Shown here piece by piece: positions 1,156 to 24,458 of a DNA stretch of 43,417 nucleotides (position 1 is the stretch's first letter; each line of letters begins with the position of its first letter). The DNA comes from Gemmatimonadaceae bacterium (GTDB lineage: Bacteria > Gemmatimonadota > Gemmatimonadetes > Gemmatimonadales > Gemmatimonadaceae), in NCBI GenBank assembly GCA_040882285.1, contig JBBEBQ010000004.1:1-43417 (forward strand), read 5' to 3'. Position numbers and translations under genes: made by a program. The notes beneath the pieces are model-generated. The model was not told the origin of the DNA. It saw nothing but the letters and a program-made list of their open reading frames with translations, and made no database searches.

Positions 1156-3627
1156 TTAGACGACGATGTTGAGCAGGCGGCCGGGGACGAAGACGACCTT
1201 CTTTGGAGTGCCGGTTACGAACTTCGCGACGCTTGGCTCGGCGAGGGCGAGCTGCAGGGCAGCCTGCTGTTCGATGCTCGGCGTGACCTGGAGAGTGCCT
1301 CGGAGCTTGCCGTTCACCTGCACCGCTAGCTCGATGGTCTCCTCGGCCGCCAGCGCGGGATCGTAGCCCGGCCAGCCGGAGTCGAACACGCTCTCGGTGT
1401 GGCCCAGCTGCTCCCACAGCTCCTCGGCGACGTGCGGGGCGAATGGGGAGATCAGTTGCACGACGGGCTCGACCTCGGCGCGGTGCGGCGTGCGCTCGCC
1501 GCGGCGGAGCACGTTCATGTACTCCATCAGCGCGGCGATCGCGGTGTTGTAGCTCAAGCGGGGAATGTCCTCGCCGACCTTGCGGATGGTCTGGTGCAGC
1601 TTGCGCAGCACGAGCGGATCGGTGTCGCCGTCGGTCGCGCTCGCGCGCACGGATGACCAGAGCCGCTCGATGAAGCGCCGCACGCCGGAGATTCCCTGGT
1701 CCCGGAAATCGCCGCCTTCCTCGAACGGCCCGAGGAACATGAGATAGGTGCGGAACGTGTCCGCGCCCCACTGCTCGATGTACGCGTCCGGGATTACGAC
1801 GTTGCCGCGGCTCTTGGACATCTTCGCGCCCTCGCGCACGATCATCCCGTGCGCGCGGAACCGGGTGAACGGCTCCTCGAACTCGAAGTGCCCGCCGTCG
1901 CACAGCACCATCGTGATGAAGCGGGAGTACAGCAGGTGCAGCACCGCGTGCTCGTTCCCGCCGATGTAGGAGTTGACCGGCAGCCACTTCTTCGTCATCC
2001 CGGGCTCGAAGGGCTGGTCGTCCACGCCGACGCTCGGGTAGCGCAGGAAATACCACGAGCTGTCGAGAAAGGTGTCCGACACGTCGGTCTCGCGCCGCGC
2101 CTGGCCGCCGCACCTGGGACACGCCACGCGGTACCACTCCTCGTGCCGCGCGAGCGGCGAGATCCCGCTGTCGTCGGGCTTGAAGTCCTTCACGAACGGC
2201 AGCAGCGCCGGCAGATCATCCTCCGGCACCGGCACCGTGCCGCAGGCGTCGCAATAGATGATCGGGATCGGCGGGCCCCAGTACCGCTGCCGTGAGATGC
2301 ACCAGTCGTGCAGCCGGTAGATGTTCACCGCGCGCCCGTGCCCGTTCGCCTCGAGCATCGCGGTGATCCGCTGCTTCCCTTCGGCGACGGGGAGCGCGTC
2401 GAACTCGCCGGAGTTCACCAGCACCGCGTCGGCGTCGTCCACGTACGCGGCGTCGAGCGGCGTGGACGCGTCCTGCCCTTCGCCCGCGACGACGCGCACG
2501 ATCGGTAGCTCGTACTTCGTCGCGAACTCGAAGTCGCGCTCGTCGTGCCCGGGGACGCCCATGATCGCGCCGGTGCCGTACTCCATCAGCACGTAATCGG
2601 CGATCCAGATCGGGACCGGCTGCCCGGTCGCGGGGTTGATCGCGTACGAGCCCGTGAACACGCCGGTCTTCTCGCGGCTCGTCTTGCGCGACACGAGATC
2701 CTGCTTGGCTGCGAGCTCGCGGTACTCGCGCACCGAGTCGAACTCCTCGCGCGTCGTGACGACGTCCACCAGCAGGTGCTCGGGCGCGAGCACCAGGTAC
2801 GTCGCACCGAAGATCGTGTCCGGGCGGGTGGTGAAGACTTTCACCGACAGCGGCGCGTCCGCGTCGATGTCCAGAGCGAACTCCACTTCCGCGCCGGTAG
2901 ACTTGCCGATCCAGTTCCGCTGCGCGGTGCGCGTGCTGTCCGACCAGTCCAGCGTGTCGAGGTTCGCCAGCAGCCGCGGCGCGTAGTCGCTGATCTTGAA
3001 GAACCACTGCTCGAGCTGCCGCTGCTCCACCATCGCGCCGCACCGCTCGCACGCGCCCGCGATCACCTGCTCGTTGGCGAGCACGGTCTTGTCGTTGGGG
3101 CACCAGTTAACCGCGGCGGACTTCTTGTACGCCAGCCCCTGCTTGAGCAGCTGCAGGAAGACCCACTGCGTCCACTTGTAGTACTCGGGATCGGTCGTCG
3201 AGAGCGTGTAGCGCCAATCCACCATCAGTCCCGCGCGCTCGAGCTGCCGCCGGAAATTCCTGATGTTGTTCGGGATCAGCTCGCTCGGGTGCTCGCCGAC
3301 CTTGAGCGCGTAGTTCTCGGAGTGAATCCCGAACGCGTCGTAGCCGAGCGGCTCGAACACGTCGAATCCCTGCAGCCGCTGGAACCGCGCGTAGATGTCG
3401 TTGCCCGTGAACGCGAACAGATTCCCGACGTGCAGCCCTTCGGCCGACGGGTACGGGAACATCATCAGCGCGTAAAACGGCTTCTTGGCGCCGGCGAGGT
3501 CGGTGTGGTTGGTCCCGCTGACCAGCCACCGCTCCTGCCACTTCGATTCGACAAACGTCGGATCATAGAAATCCGACCGGTCGACCGGCTCCTGCGGGAT
3601 CTTGCCCATAGTCTTGTAAGTTATCAT
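1156..3627 (-). CDS. leuS: Leucyl-tRNA synthetase
   Basis: A class I aminoacyl-tRNA synthetase that charges tRNA-Leu in the cytoplasm. The 823-residue product has the HIGH-type motif as HVGN at residues 66-69, Cys pairs of the zinc domain (CPNDK, CERCG and later CDACG, CPRCGG), the CP1 editing insert at about 225-410, the conserved DSSWYFLRYP segment and KMSKS near residue 602. The C-terminal anticodon-binding and extension regions are present, so it is full length. I place the start at the ATG at 3627; another at 3609 (MGKIPQ) is nearly as good because neither has a strong Shine-Dalgarno site. The open frame continues to 3861 but that part runs through palindrome A2 and is not protein-like. 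Confidence 0.97.
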   Translation of the reverse strand: MITYKTMGKIPQEPVDRSDFYDPTFVESKWQERWLVSGTNHTDLAGAKKPFYALMMFPYPSAEGLHVGNLFAFTGNDIYARFQRLQGFDVFEPLGYDAFGIHSENYALKVGEHPSELIPNNIRNFRRQLERAGLMVDWRYTLSTTDPEYYKWTQWVFLQLLKQGLAYKKSAAVNWCPNDKTVLANEQVIAGACERCGAMVEQRQLEQWFFKISDYAPRLLANLDTLDWSDSTRTAQRNWIGKSTGAEVEFALDIDADAPLSVKVFTTRPDTIFGATYLVLAPEHLLVDVVTTREEFDSVREYRELAAKQDLVSRKTSREKTGVFTGSYAINPATGQPVPIWIADYVLMEYGTGAIMGVPGHDERDFEFATKYELPIVRVVAGEGQDASTPLDAAYVDDADAVLVNSGEFDALPVAEGKQRITAMLEANGHGRAVNIYRLHDWCISRQRYWGPPIPIIYCDACGTVPVPEDDLPALLPFVKDFKPDDSGISPLARHEEWYRVACPRCGGQARRETDVSDTFLDSSWYFLRYPSVGVDDQPFEPGMTKKWLPVNSYIGGNEHAVLHLLYSRFITMVLCDGGHFEFEEPFTRFRAHGMIVREGAKMSKSRGNVVIPDAYIEQWGADTFRTYLMFLGPFEEGGDFRDQGISGVRRFIERLWSSVRASATDGDTDPLVLRKLHQTIRKVGEDIPRLSYNTAIAALMEYMNVLRRGERTPHRAEVEPVVQLISPFAPHVAEELWEQLGHTESVFDSGWPGYDPALAAEETIELAVQVNGKLRGTLQVTPSIEQQAALQLALAEPSVAKFVTGTPKKVVFVPGRLLNIVV

Positions 3628-3889: not shown

Positions 3890-4921
3890 ATGCGCCGAAT
3901 CGCCGTACTTCTTCTCGCCGCCTCCGCGTGCGCGCCCATCGCACCGCGCAACGCCCCCGCCCCGATCGATGAGGAGCACCCCCGCCTCGAATGGGGCATG
4001 GTCCTCCACGGCGGCGCGGGCGTAACGCGGACGAGCTATACCGCCGCCGAGCTGCCGCTGATGCAGGCGACTTTCCAGGCAGCGCTGCGAGCCGGGCACG
4101 CGATCCTCGAGCGCGGCGGCTCCAGCCTCGACGCGGTCGAGGCCGCGGTGCGGATCCTGGAGGACGACTCGCTGTTCAACGCCGGCAGGGGCGCGGTGTT
4201 CACCAACGACAGCATCAACGAGCTCGACGCGGCGATCATGGAGGGGCACACGTACCGCGCCGGCGCGGTCGCGGGGTTGCACCGCGTGAAGAACCCCATC
4301 ACTCTCGCGCGCGCCGTGATGGAGCGCTCCAAGCACGTGATGATGATCGGCGACGGTGCCGAGCGATTCGCCGCCGAGCACGGGATCGAGCTGGTGGATC
4401 CGAGCTGGTTCCGCACCGGGCGGCGCATGCGCTCGCTGCGGCAGGCGATCGAGAGGGAGCGGCGCGCCGCCAACCCCGGCGGCTCCGCGGTCGTCCCCGA
4501 TCCGACTCTCCGCTTTGGCACGGTCGGCGCGGTCGCGCTCGACAAGCAGGGTCGTCTCGCCGCCGCCACCACCACCGGCGGCATGACCAACAAGCGCTAC
4601 GGCCGCGTGGGCGACGTGCCGATCATCGGCGCGGGCACGTACGCGAGTCCCACCTGCGCGGTATCCGCGACGGGTGACGGCGAGTACTTCATCCGCTGGT
4701 CGATCGCGCACTCGATCTGCGCGCGCACCGAGCTGGCCGGCATGTCGCTCGCCTCCGCCGCCGACACCGTCATCATGCACATCCTGGAAGCAACCGGCGG
4801 CGAAGGCGGCGTCATCTCCCTCGACTCCCGCGGCCACGTTGCCATGCCGTTCAATGCCGAGGGCATGACTCGCGGTTACGTCGGGCCTGATGGTCGCACT
4901 TGGATGAAAATGTTCAGATGA
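3890..4921 (+). CDS. Isoaspartyl peptidase / plant-type L-asparaginase (Ntn hydrolase), lipoprotein
   Basis: The 343-residue precursor of the EcAIII/ASRGL1 family hydrolyses isoaspartyl dipeptides and L-asparagine and matures by self-cleavage. The N-terminal HGGAG motif and the nucleophile region FGTVGAVALD are clear; the catalytic Thr is about residue 211, followed by ATTTGGMTNK and GRVGDVPIIGAGTYA, which hold the glycine and substrate-binding residues. A lipoprotein-type signal (MRRIAVLLLAASAC, Cys14) suggests export and lipidation, unusual for a family that is mostly cytoplasmic. The ATG at 3890 is chosen because AGGAG lies 9 bases upstream; a GTG at 3866 lacks such a site. It converges with the glycosylasparaginase gene across palindrome A3. 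Confidence 0.9.
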   Translation: MRRIAVLLLAASACAPIAPRNAPAPIDEEHPRLEWGMVLHGGAGVTRTSYTAAELPLMQATFQAALRAGHAILERGGSSLDAVEAAVRILEDDSLFNAGRGAVFTNDSINELDAAIMEGHTYRAGAVAGLHRVKNPITLARAVMERSKHVMMIGDGAERFAAEHGIELVDPSWFRTGRRMRSLRQAIERERRAANPGGSAVVPDPTLRFGTVGAVALDKQGRLAAATTTGGMTNKRYGRVGDVPIIGAGTYASPTCAVSATGDGEYFIRWSIAHSICARTELAGMSLASAADTVIMHILEATGGEGGVISLDSRGHVAMPFNAEGMTRGYVGPDGRTWMKMFR

Positions 4922-13632: not shown

Positions 13633-13749
13633 CGCTACGTGCTGCGTCCTGCGACCTGCGCCCTCGCCGCGTCGTCCGAGCTGAAAGACTGTCTGTCCCT
13701 CCTGCACCGACCTTTCCAGGGCGCAGGCCGCAGCACGCAGCACGCAGCG
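13633..13749. repeat. Family-C palindrome C2 between ctaD and ctaE
   Basis: The left arm at 13,633-13,664 (CGCTACGTGCTGCGTCCTGC...) and right arm at 13,718-13,749 (...CGCAGCACGCAGCACGCAGCG) are complementary over about 32 bases with a few mismatches, around a 53-base loop. It begins 8 bases after the ctaD stop codon and ends 20 bases before the ctaE start. The GCTGCGT unit recurs at 18,683. Confidence 0.8.
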
Positions 13750-14837: not shown

Positions 14838-14942
14838 GGGGAAACCAAGAAGTGAGAGTCCAGAAGCCAGGTTGCCAGAAGCGAGATCAATTTTCTGGGA
14901 ATCTGGCTTCTCGCTTCTGGCATCTCATTTCTTGGATTCCCC
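14838..14942. repeat. Family-B intergenic palindrome, copy B1
   Basis: The outer ends are GGGGAAACCAAG and CTTGGATTCCCC. The inner arms GCCAGAAGCGAGA and TCTCGCTTCTGGC pair perfectly. It is preceded by GGGATTTTGACGGGG, related to the flank of B2. Located 26 bp after ctaF and 60 bp before the M20 peptidase gene, it could act as a terminator, although no U-tract follows. Confidence 0.75.
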
Positions 14943-18036: not shown

Positions 18037-18229
18037 GGCGGAAGTCTAGCTCGTACTGGTGCGATCCGTGCAATCGGTTCTTTCCGAAAGCGATCGGGAG
18101 CACGGATGACCCGGGATTCTCCGTGACGCCGGTCGTTGCACTACGTTCCGTTGAAGGGCTGATGGAATGCGTGCGTGGAACCAGAGCATCCGACCGAGCC
18201 GAAGCAGCTCCGAACCTCCAGGAGGGACG

Positions 18230-18661
18230 ATGAGAACCACCAGCAAGCTCGCCGCACTATCTCTTGCCTTCGCGCTCGCGGCGTGCGCGGGGACCGACGA
18301 TTCGGCCGCCGACTCGGCGGCGATCGACACACAGGCAGGCTTGGCGACACCCGCCCCGACCGCCACGAGCGACACCGCCGTGATCCACGTCCCGCTCACC
18401 GAATGGAGCGTCGTTGTCAGCCAGGGCGTCGTCGCGCCCGGCACGTTCAACTTCCATGCGATGAACCAGGGCACGTACACGCACGCGTTCGAGATAGAGG
18501 GCAACGGTCAGGAGTGGAAGAGCGCTCCCATCCCCCCCGGCGGCACCGCGACACTGACACCGACGCTCACACCCGGCACGTACACGGTGTACTGCCCGAT
18601 CACGGACAGTCAGGGGAATCATCGGGAGAAGGGGATGAGCACAACATTCACCGTCCAGTAA
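18230..18661 (+). CDS. Lipoprotein with cupredoxin-like domain
   Basis: A 143-residue product. The start at 18,230 is fixed by CAGGAGGGACG just upstream. The lipoprotein signal ends FALAACAG (Cys about 19), followed by an Ala/Asp/Thr linker. Residues about 45-143 look like a small blue-copper fold: ligands His in YTHAFEI, Cys in YTVYCPI, then His and Met in GNHREKGM match the type 1 copper pattern His-Cys-His-Met. The HVPLTEWSVVVSQGVV opening resembles copper-binding plastocyanin-like proteins. It may carry electrons, or copper, in the periplasm for the caa3 oxidase encoded upstream, but this is inference. Confidence 0.82.
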   Translation: MRTTSKLAALSLAFALAACAGTDDSAADSAAIDTQAGLATPAPTATSDTAVIHVPLTEWSVVVSQGVVAPGTFNFHAMNQGTYTHAFEIEGNGQEWKSAPIPPGGTATLTPTLTPGTYTVYCPITDSQGNHREKGMSTTFTVQ

Positions 18662-18682
18662 CGGCGAGTCCGCACGGAAGAG

Positions 18683-18847
18683 CGCTGCGTGCTGCGTGCT
18701 GCGTGCTGCGTCCTAGCAGGATTCCGGGCGAGCGTCAGCGTCCGGAAACCCACTGGCATCGAAAGACCGGGGTTTAGAAGTCTGTGGCACCGCACACCCT
18801 CGCGCCGCGCGACATACTCTCTAGGACGCAGCACGCAGCACGCAGCG
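18683..18847. repeat. Family-C palindrome C3 overlapping the 5' end of namZ
   Basis: The left arm 18,683-18,716 is four tandem GCTGCGT-like units ending CCTAG. The right arm 18,821-18,847 (CTAGGACGCAGCACG...) is a perfect 27-bp reverse complement of its inner part. The loop of about 104 bases contains a smaller TTCCGG/CCGGAA stem. The right arm lies in the open frame of the next gene. Confidence 0.85.
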
Positions 18848-20104
18848 TTTTTCCTTGCCGCCGCCGGGGTGCTGAGCTGCGGCACTCCGCCCGCCACTCA
18901 AAACGGTCAACCGACCACTCTCAACACGGCACAAGCTGCCGAGCCGGCCCCGGCGGAGCTGACCGGAGTCATCCCCGGGATCGAAGTCCTCCTCAGCGAT
19001 TCCCTCCACCTCATCCGCGGACTCCGCGTCGGCCTGATCACCAACCACTCCGGCCGCGACCGCGCCGGCACCAGCTCCATCGACCTCCTGCACCGCGCGC
19101 CCGGCGTCAGGCTCACCGCAATCTTCGGCCCCGAGCACGGCGTGCGCGGCGTGGCGCGCGCGGGCGAGAAGGTCGCGTCCACCGTCGACTCGGCCACCGG
19201 CGTTCCGATGTTCTCCCTCTATGGCGAGACGCTCACGCCGACTCCGGCGATGCTCGAGAACGTGGACGTGCTGCTGTACGACATCCAGGACGTCGGCGCG
19301 CGCGTGTACACCTACGTGTGGACGATGACGCTCGCCGCCGAGGCCGCGAAGAAGGCGGGCAAGCGGTTCGTCGTGCTCGACCGGCCCAATCCGATTCGGG
19401 CGGACGTGATCGAGGGAGGCGTGCTCGAGCCGCGGTACAAGTCGTTCACCGGACTGTACCCGGTCGCGCTGCGGTACGGCCTCACGCCGGGCGAGATGGC
19501 GCGGTACCTGATCGGCACCGGGCTGATAGACTCCGACGCCGTTGTCGTCCCGATGAAGAACTACCGGCTGTCGATGTGGTGGGACGAGACGGAACTCGAG
19601 TGGCGCAATCCGTCGCCCAACATCCGCGACCTCGACGCCGCGCTGCTGTATCCCGGCACCGTCTTCTTCGAGGCGACGAACGTCAACGAAGGGCGCGGGA
19701 CCGACGCGCCGTTCAAGCTGATCGGCGCGCCGTGGCTCGACGCGGGCGCGATCGCGCGCGAGCTGAACGCGAAGCGCCTGCCCGGAGTACGGTTCGACTC
19801 CACGTCCCGCGCGATCGAGCGGCCGGCCAAGTTCGGCGGCCGGACGATCCCGATGATCCAGGTCACGGTCACCGATCGGAACGCCGTGCGACCGGTGGAC
19901 GTCGGCGCGCACATGCTGCGCGCGATATACGCGCGGCACGCGCGCGACTTCCGCTGGCGCGATACCGGGATCGAGCGGCTGTCCGGCAGCGCCGCGCTCC
20001 GCCGCGCGGTCGAGTCCGGCGCGATCGACAACCTGCTCGCCCGCTGGGAAACGGAATCGGCGCGATTCCGGCAGCGGGTGGAGCCGTACAGACTGTACCG
20101 CTGA
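18689..20104 (+). CDS. Exo-beta-N-acetylmuramidase NamZ family (DUF1343), lipoprotein
   Basis: The DUF1343/NamZ family removes terminal MurNAc from peptidoglycan fragments during cell-wall recycling. Recognisable parts are GLRVGLITNHSGRDRAG, IFGPEHGVRG, VDVLLYDIQDVGARVYTYVW, VLDRPNPI and EATNVNEGRGTDAPF. A lipobox-like FFLAAAGVLSCG stands about 60 residues after the first GTG. The N-terminus is odd: the only conventional in-frame start before the lipobox is GTG at 18,689, inside the left arm of palindrome C3. The signal region is partly encoded by the right arm (GRSTQHAAFF). GGAAGAG lies 7 bases before that GTG, so it may be real; otherwise the palindrome has replaced the original start. Confidence 0.85.
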   Translation: MLRAACCVLAGFRASVSVRKPTGIERPGFRSLWHRTPSRRATYSLGRSTQHAAFFLAAAGVLSCGTPPATQNGQPTTLNTAQAAEPAPAELTGVIPGIEVLLSDSLHLIRGLRVGLITNHSGRDRAGTSSIDLLHRAPGVRLTAIFGPEHGVRGVARAGEKVASTVDSATGVPMFSLYGETLTPTPAMLENVDVLLYDIQDVGARVYTYVWTMTLAAEAAKKAGKRFVVLDRPNPIRADVIEGGVLEPRYKSFTGLYPVALRYGLTPGEMARYLIGTGLIDSDAVVVPMKNYRLSMWWDETELEWRNPSPNIRDLDAALLYPGTVFFEATNVNEGRGTDAPFKLIGAPWLDAGAIARELNAKRLPGVRFDSTSRAIERPAKFGGRTIPMIQVTVTDRNAVRPVDVGAHMLRAIYARHARDFRWRDTGIERLSGSAALRRAVESGAIDNLLARWETESARFRQRVEPYRLYR

Positions 20105-20127: not shown

Positions 20128-20286
20128 ACAGGGTTGGGTGACAGGTTATAGGTCTTGATTTTGGTTGAAGACCGGTTGATGGTCGATGGTTGCCGGTTGG
20201 TCCGCCGTCACTGCCCAACCGTCAACCCGTAACCAGTAGTTAACCACAACCAAAACCAACAACCTGTCACCCAACCCTGTTTTTTT
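20128..20286 (+). terminator. Very long palindromic terminator after namZ
   Basis: ACAGGGTTGGGTGACAGGTT (20,128-20,147) is the exact inverse of 20,261-20,280. The arms continue inward imperfectly through GGTTG-type units facing CAACC-type units. The right arm is followed at once by a run of seven T, so it should terminate plus-strand transcription. A hairpin of about 150 nt is far larger than an intrinsic terminator needs. Confidence 0.75.
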
Positions 20287-23592: not shown

Positions 23593-23723
23593 CCTGGGAT
23601 TTGGACGGGGAATCCAAGTACGGAGTGTGGCAGTTTGGAGGGATCAGTCGGGAGTGACTACTTCTGACTGTCAAACTCCCCACTGTCACACTCCAAACTT
23701 GGATCCCCCGTCCAAATCCCAGG
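23593..23723. repeat. Family-B intergenic palindrome, copy B2
   Basis: CCTGGGATTTGGACGGGG at 23,593 pairs with the inverse ending at 23,723 (CGTCCAAATCCCAGG). Next come AATCCAAGT with ACTTGGATC and, further in, GGAGTGTGGCAGTTTGGAG against CTCCCCACTGTCACACTCC. It lies between divergent genes (the CsgG-like gene and the Cys-rich protein gene). Confidence 0.85.
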
Positions 23724-24272: not shown

Positions 24273-24299
24273 GAGCAAAGCTTCAGGGGATGTTGACAG

Positions 24300-24395
24300 G
24301 GAATCCAAGTAAGGAGTGTGGCAGTTTGGAGGGGTCAGTTCGGAGTACTCCCGACTGACCCCTCTTAACTGCCACACTCCTTACTTGGATTCCCC
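24300..24395. repeat. Family-B intergenic palindrome, copy B3
   Basis: A nearly perfect hairpin with arms of about 45 bases. GGGAATCCAAGTAAGGAGTG (24,300-24,319) matches the inverse of 24,376-24,395 exactly, and the arms continue through TGGCAGTT and GAGGGGTCAGT with few mismatches to a tip of only a few bases. Outer and several inner words are shared with B2. It lies between two plus-strand genes. Confidence 0.9.
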
Positions 24396-24458
24396 TTCCG
24401 CATTCCAGTAACCTGACCAACTTGACCAACTCTGCCCGCGGCAGATAGCTTTCCCACC

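Follow-up and report, generated by a model that had tools for sequence, protein, structure and literature searches.

The namZ locus and its 5' end

The window, meaning the whole stretch of 43,417 nucleotides that was analysed, belongs to the 2.89-Mb genome (G000; 27 contigs) of a Gemmatimonadaceae bacterium, where it is contig C4. In it, a gene for a cupredoxin-like protein is followed by a palindrome built of heptamer arrays, which overlaps the 5' part of a namZ open reading frame, and a second palindrome of the same family lies further upstream. The features are as follows.

18167-18661, + strand: upstream gene, predicted small secreted cupredoxin-like protein (Pfam Cupredoxin_1 at 26.8 bits, just below the cut-off of 27.0)
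18684-18716, + strand: left arm, a (CTGCGTG)n heptamer array with the end CTGCGTCCTAG
18717-18820, no strand assigned: element interior; other loci have interiors homologous to it, in one orientation or the other (alignments and covariance model)
18821-18847, + strand: right arm, (CGCAGCA)n, with the namZ-frame reading LGRSTQHAA
18848-18854, + strand: terminal T-tract of the element, TTTTTCC, reading FF and the start of a putative h-region (sequence)
18689-20104, + strand: namZ open reading frame, exo-beta-N-acetylmuramidase family (Pfam; PDB relatives 4k05 and 4jja)
13642-13749, no strand assigned: second family member in the window, whose downstream gene has its own ATG 20 nt past the right arm

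The identity of NamZ is secure, since both Pfam profiles are covered end to end (NamZ_N at 1.9e-78 and NamZ_C at 2.4e-42, spanning residues 114-315 and 319-470). The order cupredoxin gene, inverted heptamers, namZ is present in all four searched genomes of the genus (g1), namely G000, G001, G002 and G003, each of which also has a second, more distant NamZ homologue. At namZ loci of other genera a cupredoxin gene stands upstream in 0 of 27 cases (about 1.5 kb of upstream sequence was inspected in most, 229 and 519 nt in two). Judged by codon comparison of the mature enzyme, namZ is under purifying selection in the four species, with dN/dS of 0.13-0.21 in six of six species pairs, and none of the four copies contains an internal stop.

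An earlier, sequence-only reading of this DNA had described the palindrome as a perfect 27-bp inverted repeat with a 104-base loop. The repeat and its loop were recovered, with perfect pairing over 26 bp (arms 18691-18716 and 18821-18846, separated by 104 nt); the 27th pair, T18690 with G18847, is a G·T pair, or a G·U wobble in RNA, which accounts for the earlier count. These arms are nested in a longer imperfect inverted repeat (18672-18707 and 18823-18858; 36 nt, 89%), and the left heptamer array, with four CTGCG units (18685-18712), exceeds the right one, which has three (18827-18847). Chance was ruled out as the origin of the arms: 20 Markov-random windows as long as the real one gave perfect inverted repeats of 18 bp at most within 250 nt, and a reversed control word had no match in the genome. 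Of the residues GRSTQHAAFF, which had been ascribed to the right arm, GRSTQHAA are indeed encoded there, while FF falls to the T-tract just outside it (18848-18853); the same CGC/CGT-TTTT-CC end is found at other elements of the family. Read in the namZ frame, the sequence between the cupredoxin stop (18661) and the lipobox, repeat included, has no stop. A cupredoxin-NamZ fusion by stop read-through was considered and rejected, as the cupredoxin gene and namZ share a reading frame in the window and G002 but not in G001 or G003.

A dispersed family of palindromic elements

The palindrome is one copy of a dispersed element family of about 160 bp with heptamer arms, (CTGCGTG)n, common to the four searched g1 genomes. 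The arm word has 82 matches at two mismatches or fewer in its own genome, against the 0 of the reversed control word. At one mismatch or fewer it is present in 9 of 60 relatives; the four g1 genomes have 59, 73, 23 and 28 matches, G017, from a different genus, has 160, and the remaining positive relatives have few. The reversed control word, GCGTCGTGCGTCGTGCGTCG, has many matches in two genomes of genus g35 from the same order, G047 (15) and G062 (63), which suggests a different heptamer family there.

Among the 15 pairs of arrays at loci of G000, G001, G002 and G003, the order is always CTGCG followed by CGCAG, the opposite order occurring in none, and the loops measure 109-117 nt in ten pairs and 14, 14, 55, 59 and 130 nt in the other five. 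The interiors have motifs in common, such as CTAGCAG and GTACCACTG, in both orientations, and the namZ-locus interior aligns to other copies above shuffles (for example, score 54 against L097, shuffle maximum 33). A covariance model of the interior (R1) was built on ten sequences, all from G000 and G001 and the namZ copy among them; its best E values are 9e-30 in G000, 4e-30 in G001, 2e-20 in G003 and 1e-12 in G002, and the namZ-locus interior, itself one of the ten, matches at 9.2e-30. The model also detects additional copies in G002 and G003, genomes that were not used for building it, and its matches in other genera are weak, many of them so short that mainly the arms match. At namZ the family member overlaps the 5' end of the gene in all four g1 genomes, as the sequence-only reading had proposed for the window; the paired-array loop is 114 nt in the window and G001, where it is homologous, and 55 nt in G003, and G002 has an element remnant with about 12 paired bases.

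Words like GTGGTACCGCAC recur in the interior and resemble a T-box; a known RNA family was rejected, since Rfam models gave no relevant match at the elements, either to the T-box or to any other known RNA family. The RNAalifold consensus of the interior has pairs in the arms only and zero compensatory pairs, and biased open frames in the interior were likewise discarded (0.79 and 0.68 open frames of three, versus 0.91 in shuffles). Terminal inverted repeats, small size and many copies give the family a likeness to MITEs. A search for papers on Gemmatimonadota and palindromic or heptamer repeats found no openly licensed one describing the family, judged by titles and abstract openings.

Other repeats were seen along the way. 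A long imperfect palindrome (20128-20280; 65-nt arms, 78%), starting with GAACTAC and ending in a T-run, lies 23 nt behind the namZ stop, and a similar one follows namZ in G001 (L032, about 1321-1475). The window also holds two copies of another family (23593-23723 and 24287-24406; arms 85-88% complementary), with GGGGAATCCAAGTA and GGAGTGTGGCAGTTTGGAG in common, and, between two + strand genes, a palindrome of AGAAG/CCAG-type words (14848-14925) that apparently belongs to yet another. Heptamer satellites of the types (GTGACTA)n and TGTTGGC/CTAACAGC adjoin CTGCG arrays (L093 3000-5500, L084 about 3025-3070, L080 about 3990-4030, L082 about 3005-3045), and the genome has several heptamer families differing in their letters. 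At two loci of G000 (C5:162463-163129 and C6:96063-96708) the arms lie about 600 bp apart around a longer insert, whose inner ends are inverted again in the second case (CCTCGCGGCATC and GATGCCGCGAGG-like).

Placement behind stop codons and evolution of the arms

The position of the arrays was counted for those of at least three units, relative to the stop of the gene on the CTGCG strand as called by a home-made codon-usage gene caller, at loci that had been selected for carrying an array, each orthologous locus being counted as a separate case. The array starts no more than 10 nt after the upstream stop in 43 of 102 cases and no more than 30 nt after it in 60 of 102 (for six of the 102 the retrieved stretch contained no gene upstream), compared with 3% and 8.2% of 5000 random intergenic positions. 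By genome, 14/37, 13/29, 3/7 and 13/29 arrays fall within 10 nt; the namZ-locus array begins 23 nt behind its upstream stop, i.e. inside the 30-nt range. One element (G000 C12:26605-26858) adjoins the end of a tRNA called by Rfam (L089 2856-2942), so that an element can also trail an RNA gene.

Unit by unit, the two arms of an element agree at 0.567, as opposed to a mean of 0.402 between elements of the same genome (32 elements), and 5 of 5000 permutations were as high, which suggests concerted change of the two arms or their joint copying. In nine groups, paired elements of different species share orthologous flanks, so that many copies are old and not newly jumped.

Because seven is not a multiple of three, the arrays are free of stops in every frame: (CTGCGTG)n reads LRAACCV and (CGCAGCA)n reads RSTQHAA in all three. 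Three CTGCGTG units, moreover, always provide a GTG in each frame. It is tempting, if speculative, to regard such inverted arrays as portable, frame-independent suppliers of N-termini, stop-free, with a GTG per frame and with arms kept matched by concerted change. If so, a gene overgrown at its start could survive by initiation anywhere in the element, its start codon wandering while the enzyme is conserved. Sixteen other gene starts lie within 60 nt of a CGCAG arm; fifteen come after the arm (8-53 nt) and one was called 10 nt inside it, and several of these genes encode a signal peptide of their own.

The right arm and the export signal

Bacterial lipoproteins, the substrates of signal peptidase II, carry a lipobox with a hydrophobic region before the cysteine, which usually stands about 15-35 residues from the start, behind a basic n-region. 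When the 5' regions of the namZ orthologues are aligned, a check that the sequence-only reading had called for, the reading continues from the right arm and T-tract through a hydrophobic stretch to a conserved cysteine, 21 codons with no gap in any of the four species (LGRSTQHAAFFLAAAGVLSCG, LGRSTQHAAFFLATAWVLSCG, AARSTQCAALFLAAAGMLSCG and RVLSERHAALFLSVFGALVCG). Beyond it, Cys-Gly and a linker rich in P/T/A/Q are likewise kept without indels.

In all four species the ten-residue mean hydropathy is 2.1-2.4 when read in the namZ frame, and neither of the other frames exceeds 1.1. When the window sequence was changed at random to the divergence of G002, hydropathy was kept in 2.7% of trials (P 0.027); for the two species nearer to the window the same test is weak (P 0.23 and 0.26). 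The lipobox pattern fits in the window (GVLSC), G001 (WVLSC) and G003 (GMLSC), and in the ALVC of G002 the residue at -1 is Val, outside the standard lipobox set. The gapless 21 codons, together with the purifying selection on namZ, indicate that the right arm and T-tract are probably coding, and most likely encode part of the export signal of NamZ.

It is therefore considered likely that a genus-wide element overlaps namZ and that its right arm and T-tract are translated as part of the export signal, from a start that has moved between species.

Candidate start codons

The codons that bear on the start of translation are listed below.

18689-18691, + strand: GTG, candidate start before the lipobox, with the cysteine as residue 64
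18782-18784, + strand: CTG, near-cognate alternative start three codons past the position of the ATG of G001, with the cysteine as residue 33
18833-18835, + strand: near-cognate alternative start ACG, within the right arm and preceded by AGGA, with the cysteine as residue 16
18869-18871, + strand: GTG at lipobox position -3, rival start that would leave no signal peptide (GCG in G002)
18878-18880, + strand: TGC, putative lipobox cysteine codon, then GGC, both identical in all four species

The sequence-only reading held that a single conventional start precedes the lipobox and lies inside the left arm. GTG 18689-18691, within the left heptamer array, is indeed the sole ATG, GTG or TTG between the upstream TAA (18659-18661) and the lipobox, but a second conventional codon, GTG 18869, stands within the lipobox itself, and GTG 18689 is to be taken as a candidate only. 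It is preceded by a weak GGAAGAG and no strong Shine-Dalgarno sequence, a start there gives an unusually long segment of 63 residues before the cysteine, and the codon usage of 18689-18868 is not gene-like. A left-arm GTG is in frame in the window, G001 and G002, which is less striking than it appears, since any three CTGCGTG units give an in-frame GTG.

The candidate start codons of namZ differ between the species. G001 has a candidate ATG in the loop with a Shine-Dalgarno sequence, AAGGA, 6 nt away, which correspond to TTT and AAAGA in the window, and G002 has a candidate GTG in the left arm with GGAG upstream; counted from these, the cysteine is residue 36 in G001 and 27 in G002. In G003, which has no conventional start to count from, there is no ATG, GTG or TTG from the upstream stop to the lipobox save an ATG at lipobox position -3, so for this species the translated-arm reading has to assume initiation at a non-standard codon or deep within the upstream gene, or else an error in the assembly that escaped detection. 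A start codon at lipobox -3 in all four species was rejected, as alignment on the cysteine gives GCG in G002.

Alternative readings

The hairpin might tentatively be seen as a 3'-end or attenuation signal of the cupredoxin transcript whose stem couples namZ expression to translation, a role that would be compatible with translation of the right arm. RNA of 18655-18900 is predicted to fold at -133.3 kcal/mol, against an average of -103.9 for its shuffles (z -5.9), none of 200 reaching that stability; the predicted stem takes in GTG 18689 as well as the preceding GGAAGAG and is followed by GTTTTTCC, and the arrays of the family sit behind stop codons. The 104-nt loop, however, is far from that of an intrinsic terminator and folds by itself no better than shuffles (z -0.28), and scans for sigma-70 promoters and short-loop terminators found nothing. 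If formed, the stem would bury GTG 18689, where initiation would have to take place before the right arm is synthesised or by melting of the stem; a start located in the loop, like the candidate ATG of G001, would remain exposed.

A rather doubtful variant of the translated-arm reading places the start at CTG 18782 or ACG 18833, which would leave the left arm untranslated and the right arm, or part of it, coding. Either codon would give a normal distance to the cysteine; CTG 18782 is also present in G001, AGGA precedes ACG 18833 in the window and G001, the ACG is kept in G003, and G003 must begin at a non-standard codon anyway if its ATG at 1365 does not serve. Near-cognate starts are rare, however, and the ACG is not kept in G002, nor does the CTG have a clear counterpart in G003 or G002.

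The main competing reading, though an unlikely one, is that namZ starts at GTG 18869, so that the right arm and T-tract would be 5' UTR only, the signal peptide lost and NamZ cytosolic. The spacing would be ordinary, as this codon lies 21 nt past the arm and starts at other elements lie at 20, 24, 26 and 25 nt (window 13770, L074, L100 and L156); the aligned codon is ATG in G003 and GTG in G001, and codon usage supports coding only from there, the codon-usage caller opening namZ at 18869. The missing Shine-Dalgarno sequence is no argument against it, such motifs being uncommon in the genus (30% of 259 called genes versus 18% in a control stretch). Against this start stand the GCG of G002, the hydrophobic segment, Cys-Gly and P/T/A/Q-rich linker kept without indels in four species, and the signal peptides of many outgroup NamZ proteins, several of them lipoprotein-like.

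Decay of the namZ 5' end, with the element having broken the gene and the copy becoming a pseudogene, is very improbable: the G001 ATG and AAGGA facing TTT and AAAGA in the window, and the second NamZ homologue of every g1 genome, would fit it, but the low dN/dS and the frames free of internal stops speak against it.

Proposed origin of the namZ N-terminus

With translation of the right arm as the preferred reading, the element would have been planted directly behind an upstream stop, as is typical of the family, here trailing the cupredoxin gene, and would fill the entire cupredoxin-namZ gap and run over the 5' end of namZ. There it may have displaced the opening codons of an earlier signal peptide of the lipoprotein type. 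The sequence-only reading had left it undecided whether the repeat created a new N-terminus or displaced an old one; displacement is preferred, as at many namZ loci of other genera a conventional ATG opens a plausible signal peptide, and several of these NamZ proteins are lipoprotein-like with ordinary starts (e.g. L036, L041, L043 and L046). The right arm and T-tract would now form the end of the n-region and the first residues of the h-region (RSTQHAA-FFLAAAGVLSC). Either the element supplies the start from its left arm, or ribosomes starting in the loop would cross the right arm; arrays that are stop-free and offer a GTG in every frame could have allowed start-site use to move between species.

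Comparison with known systems

In-frame fusions of MITE-like repeats with genes are described in bacteria for ERIC, YPAL/RU-2, Correia/NEMIS and RPE, according to the passages of the Delihas review (PMC2229807) that deal with them, and palindromic elements of Rickettsia are present in many conserved genes (PMC2229807; PMC10969869, in the portions on these elements). The closest case described there is Yersinia YPO1552, a predicted exported protein of 144 residues whose signal peptide is partly formed by a MITE-like element (PMC2229807). Like such palindromic interspersed elements of about 100-170 bp, as that account presents them, the namZ element is apparently translated as part of a protein. 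Unlike YPO1552, the host here is an enzyme conserved in four species, where purifying selection acts on it, and the arms are heptamer arrays.

Heptamers of the sequence GGGAATC in Xanthomonas form dispersed intergenic arrays, often as convergent inverted pairs, at a mean of 28 nt from the end of the upstream gene (PMC4692102, in its account of array positions). The heptamers of the namZ family are similarly dispersed, inverted and close behind upstream genes; they differ in sequence, the Xanthomonas repeats being described in the same source as of the G-quadruplex type. TAACTGA heptamers of Beggiatoaceae, cyanobacteria and Bacteroidetes form arrays at gene boundaries, and those in reverse orientation are read as protein, mostly as protein ends; in contrast to the namZ element, they are mostly direct repeats ending upstream of start codons, with one inverted pair among the cases that the relevant sections of PMC4679880 set out. 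The P6b stem of the cyanobacterial tRNA-Leu intron is a stem-loop of repeat motifs that have been gained, lost and replaced between lineages, and it differs from the namZ element in being, as characterised in the pertinent part of PMC4476775, a structured group I intron stem that is neither intergenic nor coding.

Precedents thus exist both for a signal peptide made from a repeat and for inverted heptamers behind genes, and what is new is that both occur together on a conserved enzyme whose start codon wanders. The namZ locus offers a natural case, followed in four species with differing candidate starts, in which a conserved enzyme has seemingly acquired part of its targeting signal from intergenic repeat DNA, and it bears on how translation and export persist once a start codon is overrun. 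It also draws attention to a family of repeats tied to gene 3' ends in uncultured Gemmatimonadaceae, members of a phylum that has received little study.
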